Under the pieces are notes generated by a model, which did no database searches, was not told where the DNA came from, and was given only the letters and a program-made list of their open reading frames with translations. Shown piece after piece: positions 1,468-58,158 of a stretch of 64,000 nt of DNA; the first letter of the stretch is position 1; each line of letters begins with the position of its first letter. The stretch is from Frankiales bacterium. GTDB lineage: Bacteria; Actinomycetota; Actinomycetes; S36-B12; CAIYMF01. The stretch covers positions 1 to 64,000 of the forward strand of contig WGLY01000010.1 in the NCBI GenBank assembly GCA_016125335.1, given 5' to 3'. Both the position numbers and the translations under genes were made by a program.

Positions 1468-1977
1468 CGCTCCCCTGCCTTCCGGGTGGACGGGCCAGGA
1501 GCGCCCCGGGATGTGGGTCCACGGGGCGCGCCTAGGCCCGCCTGTTGCGCGTCCGGAGCCGCCGTAGGCCGGATGCCGGCGCACCCATCCGCGGCAGCGA
1601 AACTAAGGCCGCCGAGCACCACCCGCCAGGACCCTGACCTGTTCTTGACCGGCAATGTGACCAGTCTCACCCTCGTAGTCGCTTACTTCACTGGGCAACT
1701 TGCACAGTTGTAGCGCTCCTCAATGCACAGCTGACGCACTCCCCGCCAGCCGGGTGGCCATCGGTAGTCACCGGCTGGGGAGCTCGGCTCGAGTCACCAC
1801 GACCAGCCTGCGGAACACGACGCCAGGCGGCAGACGTCGGCCTGGCAACGTCGCACGCGTTCCCGCACACAACGTCCGCTCCCCCGGCAGGAACCGCCAC
1901 GCACAAGGTCCCCAGCAGCGGGCACACCATCCGACACTCGTCTGGCTCCTACGGATGACAACGCGCGTTGTCGCTGG
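1468..1977. other. Intergenic element DNA with a small dyad
   Basis: No convincing gene is present. A short dyad, CAACT-TGCAC-AGTTG, lies at 1696-1710, about 230 bp upstream of the GTG at 1467, and could be an operator for that unit. The remainder shows only mixed short frames on both strands. Confidence 0.3.
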
Positions 1978-2313
1978 CTACGTCGCGCGAGTGACCGGGT
2001 TCTCGCAGAGTACGGCGACGCTGTGGACGCGAGGAATCCGCGCAGAGTGATGTCGTCCACTACTCACGACAACCGCGTCGTGATGTTGAGTGCTGCGCGT
2101 TGCATCGGGAGATCGACGAACATCGAGCTCCTGCAGCACGTCGCGCAAGTTCAGAAGCGCTCTCACGTTGGCTGGCAACACGAGGTCGTCGGGCCAGGCC
2201 ATGGCGTCGGCGATCGCGATCGTGAGGTCTTCGATCTGCCACCGCAGCTTGCGAACGCTCTCGACCCGGCAGTCCGGGTCGTCGCACTGATGAACGCTCT
2301 GCTGATCAGTCAT
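1978..2313 (-). CDS. Hypothetical protein of the integrated element
   Basis: The ATG at 2313 gives 111 aa. The first ~70 residues look like a real folded domain: a CDDPDC pair near residue 9, then a helical stretch (VESVRKLRWQIEDLTIAIAD) and a Leu/Asp/Val-rich segment. The last 40 residues are Ser/Arg/His-rich and may be disordered. The frame is open further upstream, but that part has non-coding composition. No family recognised. It is transcribed away from the repeat array at 2436-2645 and the HTH gene at 2692. Confidence 0.4.
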   Translation of the reverse strand: MTDQQSVHQCDDPDCRVESVRKLRWQIEDLTIAIADAMAWPDDLVLPANVRALLNLRDVLQELDVRRSPDATRSTQHHDAVVVSSGRHHSARIPRVHSVAVLCENPVTRAT

Positions 2314-2435
2314 GCGACGACGCTCGGCCTCTCGCCCACTGAGCACACCACATCGGTCCCGACCGCTGTGGACGACTCGCGCCACTGGTCGGCCGCAGCG
2401 GAAGAGGTCGGCGGCCACACACGCTCGCATGATGC

Positions 2436-2645
2436 CGGCGGACGCGATCGCGGACGTCCGTTCGGTGACACCAGATGCTGAGTGGCTCACGCGAGACGCC
2501 GGACAACATGATGGTCAACCGTCGGTCCGTCGCCGAGAGCGAAGAAGCCTTCACGCCAAGCGGCGGACGAAATGACGGACGACATCCAGTCCGTCGTCGG
2601 CCGCGGAAGCCAGGCACACCCCAGACGGCGGACGAGATGACGGAC
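2436..2645. repeat. Iteron-like array: four ~20-bp direct repeats spaced 61-65 bp
   Basis: Related 20-bp units start at 2436, 2497, 2561 and 2626. The last two (CGGCGGACGAAATGACGGAC and its one-base variant) match 19/20; the first two match this unit about 16/20 and 15/20. Sequence after the core is also partly similar between copies, so these look like imperfect ~64-bp tandem repeats. Spacings of 61, 64 and 65 are not multiples of three, which argues against a coding repeat. They lie immediately upstream of the HTH gene at 2692. Possible roles are binding sites for that protein, integrase arm sites, or a replication/transfer origin of the element. Confidence 0.5.
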
Positions 2646-2691
2646 AGTACGCGCACCATGGTCGGCCCAGTTGTGAGGAAGGGATCCCCTG

Positions 2692-3063
2692 ATGAGCCGT
2701 CCAGTGATGATGTCGATGCCGATCCGTCCGTCGGGCGGTCCTCCGGCTCCAGCTGACGCGGTTGCCGCCCCCGTCCCGGACGCAGAACCGCTGGTGCCTC
2801 ACACCCTGAGTCCCGAGGAGGTTGCCGAGATCGTCGGCGCCTCGGCGTGGTGGTTGCGTGATCAGGCGAGACGGGGCCTGCTCACCCATCTCCGGCTCGG
2901 TAAGGGCAGAATCCGCTTCTTGCCCGAGCACGTGAACGAGGTTCTGGCGCGTTGCACGGTTCCCACGGTCGAGAACTCCAGGCCTGCGGCCGTTCCCGAC
3001 GATGGCGTCCCCGTCCTGTCGCTGGGTGGCACGAGCCGTTCACAACGGGCTCACCGGAGGTAG
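2692..3063 (+). CDS. Excisionase/MerR-type helix-turn-helix protein
   Basis: The protein is 123 aa with an ATG start and a GAAGGGAT ribosome site 6-7 nt upstream. A Pro-rich leader of ~35 residues precedes a winged-helix domain of the HTH_17/excisionase type at about residues 38-90: LSPEEVAEIVGASAWWLRDQ, then ARRGLL and a wing with KGRIRFLPEHV. Such proteins bind DNA next to integrases and act as recombination directionality factors or element regulators. It faces the integrase gene convergently (47-bp gap) and sits just after the iteron-like array, which may be its target. The recombination role is inference. Confidence 0.6.
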   Translation: MSRPVMMSMPIRPSGGPPAPADAVAAPVPDAEPLVPHTLSPEEVAEIVGASAWWLRDQARRGLLTHLRLGKGRIRFLPEHVNEVLARCTVPTVENSRPAAVPDDGVPVLSLGGTSRSQRAHRR

Positions 3064-3109: not shown

Positions 3110-4276
3110 CTACGTCACCAAGCCAGAGAGCGCGCGACCGGCGGCCGCCGCCGCGGCATTCTGCTGGTCGGGCAGCAGGTGCGAGTACGTGTCGGTCGTC
3201 GTGGTGATCGACTCGTGGCCGAGCCGGCGCTGCAGCACGAACAGGTCGGTGCCCTGGGCAATCATCCACGACGCGTGGGTGTGGCGGAGGTCGTGGACCC
3301 GCGGTCTCTTCGTCAGACGCGGGGCGTCGGGGTCGCGTGTCCCGTCCGGCCTGTGCGGGTCGCATGCCGCGTTGAGCGCAGGAGTCCACGTGGACGTCCA
3401 GAACCGCGACGACGAGATCTGGTTGCCGCGCGAGTTGGCGAACACCAGGTCGTCCGGGGCGCGGCCCTCAATGATCGGGCGCAGCACGTCGACAAGATCG
3501 TCAGGCAGAGCGATCGTGCGACGTGCCCGCTTGGTCTTGGGCGGTCCCACGTACCAGTTGCGCTTCTCGTCGCGCTTCCAGGCCTTCGTCACCCGGATCG
3601 TCGGCGGGGTCGCGCCGAGGTCGAAGTCGGCGGTCGTCAAAGCGGTAGCTTCCCCCCAGCGCATGCCTGTGGCCACCAGAGTCAGCACGAGCGGCCTATA
3701 CGACTCGGGGATCTGTGCGAGCAGAAGGGCGAACTCGTCACGAGTCAGCACGACCATCTCGTCCTGCGTGGCCGTGCTCTTCGGCAGCTCGATGCCAGCG
3801 CACGGATTGTCCGATCGGTAACCGAGTCGCACGGCCGTCGACAACGACGCGGACAGCAGTCCGTGCACGTTCGCGATCGTCTTCGGCGCCAGGCCCTTGG
3901 CACTCATCGCCTGCACCCACGTGGCGATGTGGCGGTAGGTGACACCCACCACCGGCACGCCACCGATCACCGGGTCGATGTGCGACGTGAGCTGCGTGCG
4001 GTAGTGGCTACGGGTGTCGGGTCCGACTGCCGTCAGCAGGTCGATGTGCTCGCGCACGACGTCGGACAACGTGGGGCCGGACTGCTTCACGGCCTCGGCC
4101 AGTCGCGCGGCCTCGACCTCGCGTCCGCCGGCTGCCTCGATGAGCTTCAGCGCGACGACGGCCTCGCGCTCGTCGTCGTAGGTCAGCGAGGTCTGCTTGC
4201 CGGTGTCCGGGTCGCGCCAGAGCACGGCGTAGGCCGTGGTGCCGTCAGCTCGGCGGCGCGGTCGGATGGAGGCCAT
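3110..4276 (-). CDS. int: Tyrosine-family site-specific integrase
   Basis: The 388-aa protein starts MASIRPRRRADG at the ATG 4276. It has an N-terminal AP2-like arm-binding region, a SAM-like core-binding domain (about 65-160) and a C-terminal catalytic domain (about 175-375). Catalytic signatures are visible: Arg in VATGMRWGEATAL, the HTHAS box in LRHTHASWMIAQG, the LGH box in LQRRLGHESI, and the nucleophilic Tyr in TTDTYSHLLP. It cuts and joins att sites. Its start is only 79 bp from the tmRNA 3' end, so the element presumably uses ssrA as its attB. The start is set by the upstream in-frame stop and by homologous MASI-type starts. Confidence 0.93.
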   Translation of the reverse strand: MASIRPRRRADGTTAYAVLWRDPDTGKQTSLTYDDEREAVVALKLIEAAGGREVEAARLAEAVKQSGPTLSDVVREHIDLLTAVGPDTRSHYRTQLTSHIDPVIGGVPVVGVTYRHIATWVQAMSAKGLAPKTIANVHGLLSASLSTAVRLGYRSDNPCAGIELPKSTATQDEMVVLTRDEFALLLAQIPESYRPLVLTLVATGMRWGEATALTTADFDLGATPPTIRVTKAWKRDEKRNWYVGPPKTKRARRTIALPDDLVDVLRPIIEGRAPDDLVFANSRGNQISSSRFWTSTWTPALNAACDPHRPDGTRDPDAPRLTKRPRVHDLRHTHASWMIAQGTDLFVLQRRLGHESITTTTDTYSHLLPDQQNAAAAAAGRALSGLVT

Positions 4277-4280
4277 GACG

Positions 4281-4322
4281 AAGGAGGGTAGCCATCCGTG
4301 TCAACGGTTGGCTACCCTCCTT
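4281..4322. repeat. Perfect 14-bp inverted repeat between integrase start and tmRNA
   Basis: Arms at 4281-4294 and 4309-4322 are exact reverse complements with a 14-nt loop. Each of two TGTCAAC heptamers (4299-4305 and 4322-4328) lies at or near an arm. The hairpin begins 5 nt upstream of the int ATG and is 33 bp past the tmRNA end. No T-tract follows. It could be an integrase or repressor binding site, a terminator for ssrA transcription, or an attenuator that controls int translation. Confidence 0.7.
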
Positions 4323-4354
4323 GTCAACATAACCAGCGTTTCCGCAGGTCACAG

Positions 4355-4720
4355 GGGTGGAGGTGGCGGGAATCGAACCCGCGTCCTTCGTTGGTGATCA
4401 GGGCCTTCTCCGGGCGCAGTCCGCTGTGCTTTTCTCGGCCCCGGGAGTCACGCGGACAAGCTCCCGACGGGCTCAGTCACTGTGTGATGTCCCGAGCAGC
4501 CCCGTGACCGGGCTACGCGGTGAGTTCCCTAGCTGACGCCAGGATCCGGGGCGGGAACGCCCCCGGGCTGACGGACTTCAGGCTCGCTTAGGCAGCGAGG
4601 GCGAAGTCAGTGCGCTGAGTGTTGGCACTTGTATTTAGGCGCTGGATCGTTGACGAGATGACCAGCATCCTCGGCCCGCTTCTCCCATCTCAACAGACGA
4701 AGTCGAAACCGATCACCCCC
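4355..4720 (-). ncRNA. ssrA: Transfer-messenger RNA (tmRNA)
   Basis: Transcribed leftward. The 5' end at 4720 reads GGGGGTGATCGGTTTCGACT, the conserved tmRNA start; the 3' end has a T-arm with GGTTCGATTCC. The 7-bp acceptor stem pairs 4714-4720 with 4359-4365, and the discriminator A is at 4358. The next three bases give CCC rather than CCA, so the CCA tail must be completed by the nucleotidyltransferase. It works with SmpB (9136-9615) to rescue stalled ribosomes and tag the nascent chain. The 3' end is also the apparent integration site of the element to its left. Confidence 0.96.
4588..4626 (-). other. tmRNA proteolysis-tag reading frame
   Basis: Within tmRNA, after TAAATACAAGT, the resume codon GCC starts the frame ANTQRTDFALAA followed by TAA at 4590-4588. 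With the alanine carried by tmRNA the added tag is 13 residues. The FALAA end is the usual actinobacterial degron recognised by ClpXP-type proteases. Confidence 0.9.
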
Positions 4721-7014: not shown

Positions 7015-8433
7015 TCAGGCCGACGCCGTCTCGGGAGCGACCTCGTGCATCGCGTCGAGCACGCCGGACATCACGGCCTGGAGCGTCGCGTTGCCCTGCG
7101 GCGTCCCCGCGCCGAAGCCGTACATGGCACCGGACTTCGCCGGCTCGCCGTGGTGCTCCTGCGCGTACGCCACCGCCACGCGCAGCGCGTCGAGGAACCG
7201 CTCGGCCGTGCCCGGCGCGGTGTTGGGCCGGGTGACGCAGAAGTGCAGCGCGGCCGGCAGCTGGAGCGAGTTCATCCGCCAGCCCTGGTCCTTGAGCGAG
7301 TCGTTCACCAGGTAGATGTCCAGCGCCGCCTCGTCGGCCGCCTTGAAGGCCACGAGGAACGTCGGGTCGCCGATCACCTCGAGCTCGGGCACCGAGGTGC
7401 GGATGCCCACGCTGATCGCCGACGCCGTGCGCATGATGTCGTCGGCGGCCGCGAGGTAGCCGGACTCACCCGTCGCGAGCAGCGCGGCGTAGGTCGAGGC
7501 GATGATGCCGCCGCTGCGCGAGCCGGCCAGCCCGGGTGAGAGGTAGAGGCCGCCGGGCCAGTCCGGGTAGGTGAAGTACTGGTGCTTGCGCAGGTCCTTG
7601 CTGCGGTAGAGCAGCACGCTCGAGCCCTTGAGCGCGTAACCGTACTTGTGCGTGTCGGCCGAGATGCTGGTGACGCCGGGCACGCGGAAGTCCCACAGCG
7701 GCACGTCGTAGCCCAGGCGCTCCACCCACGGCAGCAGCCACCCGCCGAGGCAGCCGTCCACGTGCAGGCCCAGGCCGCGGCTCTGCGCCAGCTCGGCGAT
7801 CGCCTCGATGGGGTCGATGAGCCCGTGCGCGTAGTTGGCGGCGCTGCCCACGAGCGCGATCGTCTGGTCGTCGATGAGCCCGGCCATGGCGTCGACGTCG
7901 GCGACGTAGCCCTCGGACAGCGGGGCGTGGCGCACCTCGATGCCCATCCAGTGCGCGCCCTTGTCGAGCGCGACGTGCGCGGTCACCGGCATCACGACGT
8001 TGGGCCGGGTGACGCCGCGGGTCTCGCGCGCCTGCTCGCGGTAGGAGTAGAGCGCGGTGATGAGGCTCTCCGAGCCGCCGCTGGTGACGACGCCGACGCC
8101 CGTGCCGTGCAGCAGGTCCGAGGTCATGGCGACGATCTCGCCCTCGAACTTGGTCGCGCTCGGGTACATGTCGCGCTGGAGCACGTTGGCGTGGCTGAAG
8201 AGGCTGAACACCTCGCCGAGGAACGCGTAGTGGTCGTGGTCGCCGCTGTAGAGGCTGCCGCTCACCGTGCCCTGGTCGCCCTGCGCGTCCTCGCGGTGCG
8301 CCATGTCGGCGATCTCGGCCAGCAGCCGGCCGCGCTCCACCGGCTCCGCGGGCAGCCGGCGGAACGCCTCCGTGCTGCGCCGGTAGGGCCAGAACCCGTC
8401 GAGCATCTCCTCGAGGCCGGCGTCGTCGCTCAT
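7015..8433 (-). CDS. PLP-dependent lyase, sphingosine-1-phosphate lyase / group II decarboxylase family
   Basis: The 472-aa protein is a fold-type I PLP enzyme. Seen: the cofactor ring contacts GVVTSGGSESLITAL, the Asp region LGLHVDGCLGGW, and the Schiff-base lysine in ISADTHKYGYALKG. The SADTHKYG box and overall length fit the sphingosine-1-phosphate lyase branch, which cleaves phosphorylated amino alcohols by retro-aldol reaction. There is no N-terminal membrane anchor, unlike eukaryotic S1P lyase. Its ATG overlaps the tetR stop (ATGA) and the kinase gene follows after 1 nt. A role as lyase on a kinase-made phospho-amino-polyol is inference. Confidence 0.8.
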   Translation of the reverse strand: MSDDAGLEEMLDGFWPYRRSTEAFRRLPAEPVERGRLLAEIADMAHREDAQGDQGTVSGSLYSGDHDHYAFLGEVFSLFSHANVLQRDMYPSATKFEGEIVAMTSDLLHGTGVGVVTSGGSESLITALYSYREQARETRGVTRPNVVMPVTAHVALDKGAHWMGIEVRHAPLSEGYVADVDAMAGLIDDQTIALVGSAANYAHGLIDPIEAIAELAQSRGLGLHVDGCLGGWLLPWVERLGYDVPLWDFRVPGVTSISADTHKYGYALKGSSVLLYRSKDLRKHQYFTYPDWPGGLYLSPGLAGSRSGGIIASTYAALLATGESGYLAAADDIMRTASAISVGIRTSVPELEVIGDPTFLVAFKAADEAALDIYLVNDSLKDQGWRMNSLQLPAALHFCVTRPNTAPGTAERFLDALRVAVAYAQEHHGEPAKSGAMYGFGAGTPQGNATLQAVMSGVLDAMHEVAPETASA

Positions 8434-56421: not shown

Positions 56422-58158
56422 TCAGCCCGGGTAGACGGGGTACTCGGCGGTCGCGACCGGCGACCACACGCTGCCCGAGCTCGCGTAGACGAGGGCGGGG
56501 TCGCCGTCGGCTGCCTCGGCGCCCACGAGCAGCGGGTTGCCCGGCGCAGCGGCGAGCGTGACGGCGCCGGCCGTGGGCACGGAGGTGTGGGAGAGGTTGG
56601 GCGAGTAGCCCAGCGGCAGCTGGTAGATCTCCAGCGCCGAGGTGGCCACCGTGCCGAGCACCGCGAGGGTGTCCGAGTCGAGCCAGGCGAGGTCGAGGGC
56701 GTTGGTGACGCCGCCGTCGAACCGCCGCGGCGCGGCGACCTTGACGCTGCCGCCGTCGCGCTCGATGCGGGCCACGAGCGGCTCGACGTTGGACTTGCGC
56801 TTGACCAGCATCGCGATCCGCGTGCCGTCGCGGGACACGGCGACGGAGAGCACCGAGTGGTCGCTCACGTCGGCGGGGAGCCCCTCGATCGGCACCACCA
56901 CGGCGGTGTCGTCCTTGACCATCACCAGTCCGGTGCCGCGGTCGACGACCCACACGTCGCCGTAGCGGTCCCAGCTGGGCCGCGACAGCTCGCCCGAGCT
57001 CGTGGCCGGCACGTAGCGGCGCACCGGTGTCGCGCCGTCGGCCAGGCGCGAGACGTAGAGCGCCTTGTCCGGCCCGATGCCGGCGACCTGGGTGGAGTCC
57101 AGGCTCACGGCGGGCCGCACGAGGTCGGTCTTGAGCCGATCGACCGGCGGCAGCGTGCCCGGCTTCGTGCCGGCGACGAGCTGCACGACACCGCGCTTGT
57201 CGACCGCCCAGCCGGTGGAGTCCTGCGGCAGGCCGCCCGGGTCGACCAGCGGCCAGGCCGTCACCGGCTGCACGACGCCGGCGCCCGGGACCGGCAGCGG
57301 CTGGCCGTTGGCGCTGATGCGCACCCCGGTCACCCCGCCCACCTGGCGCAGGGTCCACACCAGCTGGGCCGAGAGCTTCTGCCGGGTCTCGTCGCTCGCG
57401 GTGAGCACCTCGCTGCTCAGCTCGACGTCGGCCACCCCGCCGTCGCCCACCGGGACGACGTCGAGGGCGAGCTTGGTGCCCTCGGGGAACGCCGTGCTCA
57501 CCGACGGCGCGATCGACTCGGGCGCGCCGGCCAGCAGCGAGCGCACCAGCACGGTGGCGATGCCGGAGGTCGTGATGGGCACCGTGATCGGGGCCGGGAC
57601 CAGCGTGGCGAAGTCGCGGGTGAAGTAGTAGAGGTCGTAGGTGCGGTAGCTGCGCGCGATGTCGTACTGGCCGAGCACCAGGCCGGTGGGCAGCGTGGCG
57701 ATCCGCCACTCGTTGCCGATGCGGGCCATGCCGTAGGAGATGCCGTCGAGCTTCGACCCCGGCGCGGCGACGGTGTACTCGCCCTCGCGGTTGATCTGCG
57801 CGGTGAGGCTGCCGTCGACGGTCACCACCGAGCCCGCGCTCTGGTAGGTGAGCTGCCCCGCCGTGATCTTCACGCCCGCGGTCGGGTCCCACACCGACGA
57901 GGCGCCGGGCGTGAGGTAGAGCCGGGCCACGTAGTAGTCGGCGTCGGCACTGGCGGTGGCCTGCTGGAAGCCGCGCACGATCTGCTCCGGGGTGGCCCCG
58001 GGCTGCGGCGGCTGGGCGATCACGCGGGTGAGCGGGTCCTCCCCCACCGGCGCCACCGTGGGGCCCTGCTGGATCGGACCGGACGTCGGGATCCCGGCGC
58101 AGGCGGCGAGCAGCAGCGCCAGCGGCGCGAGCAGGGCGGCCCGCAGGCGCGGCGTCAC
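56422..58158 (-). CDS. lpqB: Lipoprotein LpqB
   Basis: From GTG 58158 the product is 578 aa with a type II signal peptide: LRAALLAPLALLLAACAGIP, lipid-modified Cys at about residue 20. GerMN-like domain (PITVPITTSGIATVLVRSLL, then ISANGQPLPV) and a C-terminal beta-propeller-like region (SVAVSRDGTRIAMLVKRKSN) follow. LpqB binds MtrB and tunes MtrAB signalling in the envelope. It overlaps the mtrB stop by GTGA with a GGAGGTG site inside mtrB. Confidence 0.96.
   Translation of the reverse strand: MTPRLRAALLAPLALLLAACAGIPTSGPIQQGPTVAPVGEDPLTRVIAQPPQPGATPEQIVRGFQQATASADADYYVARLYLTPGASSVWDPTAGVKITAGQLTYQSAGSVVTVDGSLTAQINREGEYTVAAPGSKLDGISYGMARIGNEWRIATLPTGLVLGQYDIARSYRTYDLYYFTRDFATLVPAPITVPITTSGIATVLVRSLLAGAPESIAPSVSTAFPEGTKLALDVVPVGDGGVADVELSSEVLTASDETRQKLSAQLVWTLRQVGGVTGVRISANGQPLPVPGAGVVQPVTAWPLVDPGGLPQDSTGWAVDKRGVVQLVAGTKPGTLPPVDRLKTDLVRPAVSLDSTQVAGIGPDKALYVSRLADGATPVRRYVPATSSGELSRPSWDRYGDVWVVDRGTGLVMVKDDTAVVVPIEGLPADVSDHSVLSVAVSRDGTRIAMLVKRKSNVEPLVARIERDGGSVKVAAPRRFDGGVTNALDLAWLDSDTLAVLGTVATSALEIYQLPLGYSPNLSHTSVPTAGAVTLAAAPGNPLLVGAEAADGDPALVYASSGSVWSPVATAEYPVYPG

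Follow-up and report, generated by a model that had tools for sequence, protein, structure and literature searches.

Putative operator sites beside the excisionase-type gene of an integrative element recur before a Tad-pilus operon in a Frankiales bacterium

Introduction

Directionality factors bind direct repeats placed about one helical turn apart and can regulate promoters, as two reports describe (PMC7498355, PMC11963761). For Apl of phage 186 and RdfS of ICEMlSymR7A, the same reports place an excisionase-type winged helix-turn-helix (wHTH) gene within an integrative element and direct-repeat sites at the factor's own promoter. The locus analysed here appears to resemble both systems in these two traits and differs from them in that its half-sites are paired 12 bp apart, with the pairs recurring at about 63 bp, and in that the same sites precede a pilus operon, also in genomes that have no such HTH gene. 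Another likeness is with BldC of Streptomyces, which has head-to-tail direct repeats and an HTH_17-type fold like that predicted for the HTH protein of the element (PMC5859096; fold grouping in PMC11963761). The sites given for BldC are AT-rich 9-bp repeats (PMC5859096), whereas the array described below is GC-rich with a 12-bp period, and a BldC-type site was rejected on this ground. Autoregulated sigma factors of the ECF type provide a further comparison, with a sigma2-like domain and upstream sites of their own at a fixed distance. In contrast to them, visual inspection of the aligned leaders of the sigma-like genes considered here revealed no −35/−10 pair, several sites occur in both orientations and no convincing match to sigma4 was obtained. 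Finally, tad gene clusters are required for natural transformation in Micrococcus luteus, an actinobacterium that has Tad-pilus genes in common with the present genome; the part of that report available to us describes neither such a leader gene nor such an operator (PMC4322843), and for the operon described below a pilus function is predicted.

The window, by which we mean the whole 64,000-nt stretch of DNA analysed, is the beginning of contig C10 of a Frankiales genome of 41 contigs and 3.93 Mb.

The element and its excisionase-type gene

The genes lie in the order ssrA, tyrosine integrase, HTH gene facing the integrase and then the repeats (Table 1). The product of the HTH gene scores 25.8 bits with Pfam HTH_17, just under the gathering score of 27, and 15.7 bits (E 0.015) with the NCBIfam excise profile, under the cut-off of 28.8. 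The same tmRNA–integrase–HTH order is found in L004, L006 and G206, where the HTH gene likewise adjoins a related tyrosine integrase, and because of this shared order it is plausible, despite the sub-cut-off family scores, that the HTH gene encodes an excisionase. Neither the HTH protein nor the integrase had relatives in the viral contigs searched, and the exact motif pattern and the end-sequence pattern had no match in them. The 3′ end of ssrA is duplicated at C36:58508, beside a strong hairpin, and this copy possibly marks the element's far end. On the minus strand, positions 1–88 of the window look by eye like the beginning of an OrfA-like frame of the IS3 type; lying where the contig ends, it is probably the cause of the assembly break.

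Table 1. Features of the element around the repeat array (window coordinates)
Feature	Position	Strand	Remarks
36-nt sequence with palindromic core ACAACGCGCGTTGT	1936..1971	-	identical in all four sg cassettes
Small divergent gene sg, no known family	1978..2313	-	first 64 residues conserved
R1, putative operator copy GGCGGACGCGATCGCGGAC	2437..2455	+	
R2, degenerate copy (GCCGGACAACATGATGGTC)	2498..2516	+	4 mismatches in 17-base core
R3, putative operator copy GGCGGACGAAATGACGGAC	2562..2580	+	
R4, putative operator copy GGCGGACGAGATGACGGAC	2627..2645	+	-65 to -47 from HTH gene ATG
HTH_17 excisionase-type gene	2692..3063	+	Pfam HTH_17, E 1.3e-5
Tyrosine integrase	3110..4276	-	Pfam Phage_integrase, E 1.2e-22
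ssrA (tmRNA), attachment site at 3′ end	4356..4720	-	ARAGORN

Between ssrA and the start of the integrase gene (4281–4328) there is an inverted repeat, AAGGAGGGTAGCCA/TGGCTACCCTCCTT, together with two copies of TGTCAAC 23 bp apart. Similar TGACCTGCGGAAACGC and GTTGACA stretches were seen by eye downstream of ssrA in L006 and G206. By eye, these repeats beside the att core are better candidates for integrase arm sites than the array.

A regular array of repeats before the HTH gene

On one side of the array a small divergent ORF starts at 2313 (minus strand), and on the other the HTH gene starts at 2692. The array consists of four related 19–21-mers, the second of them weak, with GGCGGACGARATGACGGAC as the repeat 19-mer and start-to-start distances of 61, 64 and 65 bp; the mean spacing of 63.3 bp corresponds to about six helical turns. 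When up to 3 mismatches are allowed, three copies are present in the 64-kb window against 0.09 expected. Not one of 1000 dinucleotide shuffles of positions 2380–2690 matched the best pair (18/19), and the best evenly spaced triple (14/19) was likewise reached in 0/1000. Copies R1, R3 and R4 contain CGGAC half-sites 12 bp apart, and R2 is in register with R3 and R4 across 51 nt. The proposal of the initial annotation, candidate protein sites that lie along one face of the DNA beside an excisionase-type gene, is supported.

An iteron-type replication origin or a transfer origin had also been proposed. The repeats are regular, as such a reading supposes, and a GTCGTCCACAG box, which we take to resemble a DnaA box, is conserved in the four cassettes that carry the array (see below). 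However, no Rep-like family was detected in the neighbouring ORFs tested, by a search that could miss unknown families, the HTH protein had no relatives in the phage and plasmid collections searched (nor had the sigma-like protein introduced below), and the same sites precede a pilus operon. An origin thus found no support and is very improbable.

The motif elsewhere in the genome

The core of the motif, CGGACGARATGACGGAC, has 8 exact matches genome-wide, two of them in the window, and 5 more at one mismatch; the reversed control pattern has 0 exact matches. With up to three mismatches the count (86) shows little excess over the control (57), and the analysis was therefore limited to close core matches. 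These fall in the window, at C7:12461–12623, at C32:9174–9316, at C32:57983 (a less good copy follows at 58046), as a pair at C7:8369 and 8574, and as singles within coding sequence on C19 and on C35. Outside the window, too, tandem copies are spaced 63–64 bp, and the motif is found in a congener as well.

The conservation expected among related elements was thus only partly observed: the repeats recur in the same genome and in the congener, and Cellulomonas has sites of its own at the same genes, but they are not conserved in the ssrA elements of L004, L006 and G206. This bears on the suggestion that the array might represent integrase arm-type sites. Array and integrase do belong to the same element; the motif is nevertheless absent from these three elements, whose integrases are related, it occurs on contigs far from the window integrase, and some 1.7 kb separate the array from the att core. 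The role of arm sites is accordingly disfavoured and hardly to be expected.

Several matches were set aside as chance. Those in relaxase genes (C25, L113) encode the ordinary peptides ADAVTD and VDTMLD, and the link to conjugation that they seemed to offer was dropped; the match at C32:33540 reads like the C25 stretch, the exact match on C35 lies within a repetitive coding stretch and that at C19:32223 is inside a long ORF.

The Tad-pilus operon and its sigma-like leader protein

The motif set on C7 is located directly upstream of a Tad-pilus operon with genes for a SAF-domain protein, a CpaE-like ATPase, a TadA-type ATPase and a TadE-like protein. Here the sites stand without sg and without the 36-mer of Table 1. 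Copy R4 has the same sense and distance to the HTH gene as the proximal site of this operon has to its first gene (−66 to −48). Taken together, the sequence evidence argues that the repeats in the window are a real and regular array of putative operators, common to the element and a Tad-pilus operon.

The first gene of the operon encodes a 278-aa protein without a Pfam match. In its predicted structure (mean pLDDT 78, pTM 0.44), the N-terminal part (residues ~5–114) aligns with sigma2 domains over about 90–105 residues with Z of 8–10, and the best 50 structural matches are dominated by sigma-factor chains. The C-terminal part alone gave weak structural matches, none of them convincing to sigma4. 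Because of this, and because Foldseek with the leader structure returned no E below 0.001, the predicted protein is called sigma-like and given no closer class.

Within the TadZ/CpaE-like gene lie the two one-mismatch copies at C7:8369 and 8574 (L019 370–386 and 575–591), in opposite orientation and 205 bp apart.

Sites before sigma-like genes in relatives

A search of 244 genomes gave relatives of the sigma-like gene in 10, the present genome among them; further relatives lie in three loci of Cellulomonas (L003, L005 and L007), where an HTH homologue is a few kilobases away or less. The sequence of the upstream repeat is specific to each lineage: GTCCGTCATCTCGTCCG on C7, GACTCCGTCATSGACTCCGTC and TTGCRGTTSGTCTTGCG in G009, GGTTGTCACGATGCTTGAC in G176, GTGATCGATCKGTCTATCG in Cellulomonas, and others. 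What the lineages have in common is the layout, two half-sites of about 5 bp placed 12 bp apart. At a shift of 12 the half-sites agree at 48/69 positions, and at shifts of 7–11, 13 and 14 the identity is at most 0.35. In 11 of the 12 sigma-like genes that could be placed, the proximal site has a common orientation and its end lies 47–51 nt upstream of the start codon. Both counts are to be read with the site strings having been chosen by hand from the same upstream regions, and in the distance count the start codons at L003 4075 and L007 5360 were preferred to longer ORFs. The 12 genes amount to approximately eight independent lineages, since L003, L005 and L007, G038 and G206, and the two genes of G176 are related. 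One gene in which no site was found (G012) and three with partial matches or little upstream DNA (G002, G014, G230) were left out of this count.

Taken one by one, the repeats are weak at many loci. In 6 of the 13 upstream regions tested the best pair was reached by at most 2 of 200 shuffles, one of these regions being of low complexity. The sites of G000-C1 and G011 were recognised by their likeness to those of other lineages, and their upstream repeats are within the range of shuffles (111/200 and 139/200 reach the best pair). A sigma-like gene is present wherever sites were found, an association that is partly circular, as the sites were sought at that gene.

Sites before HTH genes in other genomes

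In Cellulomonas the HTH gene is preceded by the lineage's own site, which ends at −83 to −85. Across five Cellulomonas genomes, the motif with up to 2 mismatches has 9 matches genome-wide and the controls have none; seven of the nine are directly before an HTH or a sigma-like gene and the other two belong to the L006 array, which lies between the HTH gene and the integrase gene. In three Cellulomonas genomes the sites mark the HTH gene and the sigma-like/Tad operon and there is no other close match. G176 has an excisionase-type gene from a different subfamily, next to an integrase and a relaxase gene; upstream of it are two copies that end at −75 and −98, and one of the two is poor. No such site was found before the HTH gene of G206 or L004.

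In the L006 array (7273–7396) the Cellulomonas motif occurs three times at a spacing of 52–53 bp (five turns). The integrase gene and a neighbouring gene both have their 3′ ends towards this array, where a promoter is unexpected.

The initial annotation had considered the repeats as sites of the directionality factor, and this stays as the main rival explanation: the HTH_17 protein would bind the repeats, regulate its own gene and act on the Tad operon. The HTH gene adjoins the array, and the restriction of the sites to this gene and the Tad operon in three Cellulomonas genomes fits it. Known directionality factors also bind direct repeats and can regulate promoters (PMC7498355, PMC11963761). 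Against this, a profile search (E ≤ 0.001) detected no HTH homologue in G009, G011, G038 or G176, all of which carry sites upstream of the sigma-like gene, and in G206 and L004 the HTH gene is present but the sites are not. Because of the four site-bearing genomes, the HTH protein is unlikely to be a general binder of the sites, and on balance we regard this explanation as unlikely.

A putative Tad/sigma-like regulon

The reading that we prefer, at somewhat better than even confidence, is that the array represents operators of a Tad/sigma-like regulon that controls the excisionase-type gene. Each good site would be made of two CGGAC half-sites, 12 bp apart and head to tail, and the six-turn spacing would align the sites along one face of the helix, where bound proteins could cooperate. 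The last site, R4, would occupy the position expected for the promoter of the HTH gene. The sigma-like protein probably binds the sites and would control both its own operon and the HTH gene, whose product would be the excisionase of the element. If both the regulator and the excisionase are rightly assigned, excision would be coupled to the pilus programme. In favour of this regulon are the 19-mer common to the array and the C7 operon, the half-site layout and start-codon distance kept among the relatives, the sites at the HTH genes of Cellulomonas and at the excisionase-type gene of G176, and the sigma2 alignment of the leader protein. Several findings count against it: the sites of HTH genes elsewhere end at the distances given above and not at −47, the HTH genes of G206 and L004 lack a site, some arrays have no convincing gene at the expected distance, only 6 of the 13 upstream regions have repeats clearly beyond shuffles, sigma4 is unmatched, and Foldseek gave no E below 0.001.

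A broader proposal, which we hold tentatively and at rather less than even confidence, is that an undescribed sigma-like family heads actinobacterial Tad operons, with a recognition sequence that shifts fast while the layout and the distance to the start codon are kept. Elements would repeatedly have put the operator of the lineage before an excisionase-type gene, so that excision follows the pilus, and possibly DNA-uptake, programme of the host. No link between such a regulator and an excisionase gene was found in the open-access literature searched. If right, the regulon reading offers an operator, a candidate regulator and a set of targets for immediate testing, and provides a concrete tie between a pilus programme and the excision of mobile elements. 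Sites that vary in sequence by lineage within a fixed layout would further constitute a natural data set for the coevolution of regulators and their sites.

The sg cassette and other arrays

Of 392 genomes searched, 2 encode the N-terminal 64 residues of sg, at 4 places in all, and repeats lie upstream at every one. The resulting cassette (window 1936–2667; L020, L021 and L059; two species) is composed of the repeats, the conserved GTCGTCCACAG box, sg and the 36-nt end, which could be a recombination or protein site. This suggests another explanation, in which the array serves a small mobile cassette, or acts as a decoy for a host regulator, and the position of the array before the HTH gene is incidental. 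The same parts make up all four cassettes, from two species, and only one of these has an HTH homologue nearby (G000 has one HTH match and G009 none). In addition, no gene lies convincingly at the expected distance from the arrays at C32:9.2k, G009:C86 and L006. Both the cassettes and these arrays leave room for a possible decoy or structural role. On the other hand, the same sites precede the C7 Tad operon, which has neither sg nor the 36-mer, and R4 is exactly at the promoter-proximal position. We consider the cassette or decoy explanation improbable and retain the Tad/sigma-like regulon as the preferred one.

At the C32:58k array an ATG starts 49 nt downstream, but its ORF is antisense to an XRE/HigA-like gene. 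One repeat cassette, in L020, directly adjoins a TIR-domain gene (3854–4630; Pfam TIR_2, E 1.8e-15), which occupies the position that the XRE/HigA-like gene has in the C32:58k copy. The same contig carries a probable second integrative element (C32:7840–57250; L020, L021), in which near-identical tRNA-like stretches, identified by eye, bracket about 49 kb that end with an excisionase-type gene and an integrase gene (C32:55573–57009).
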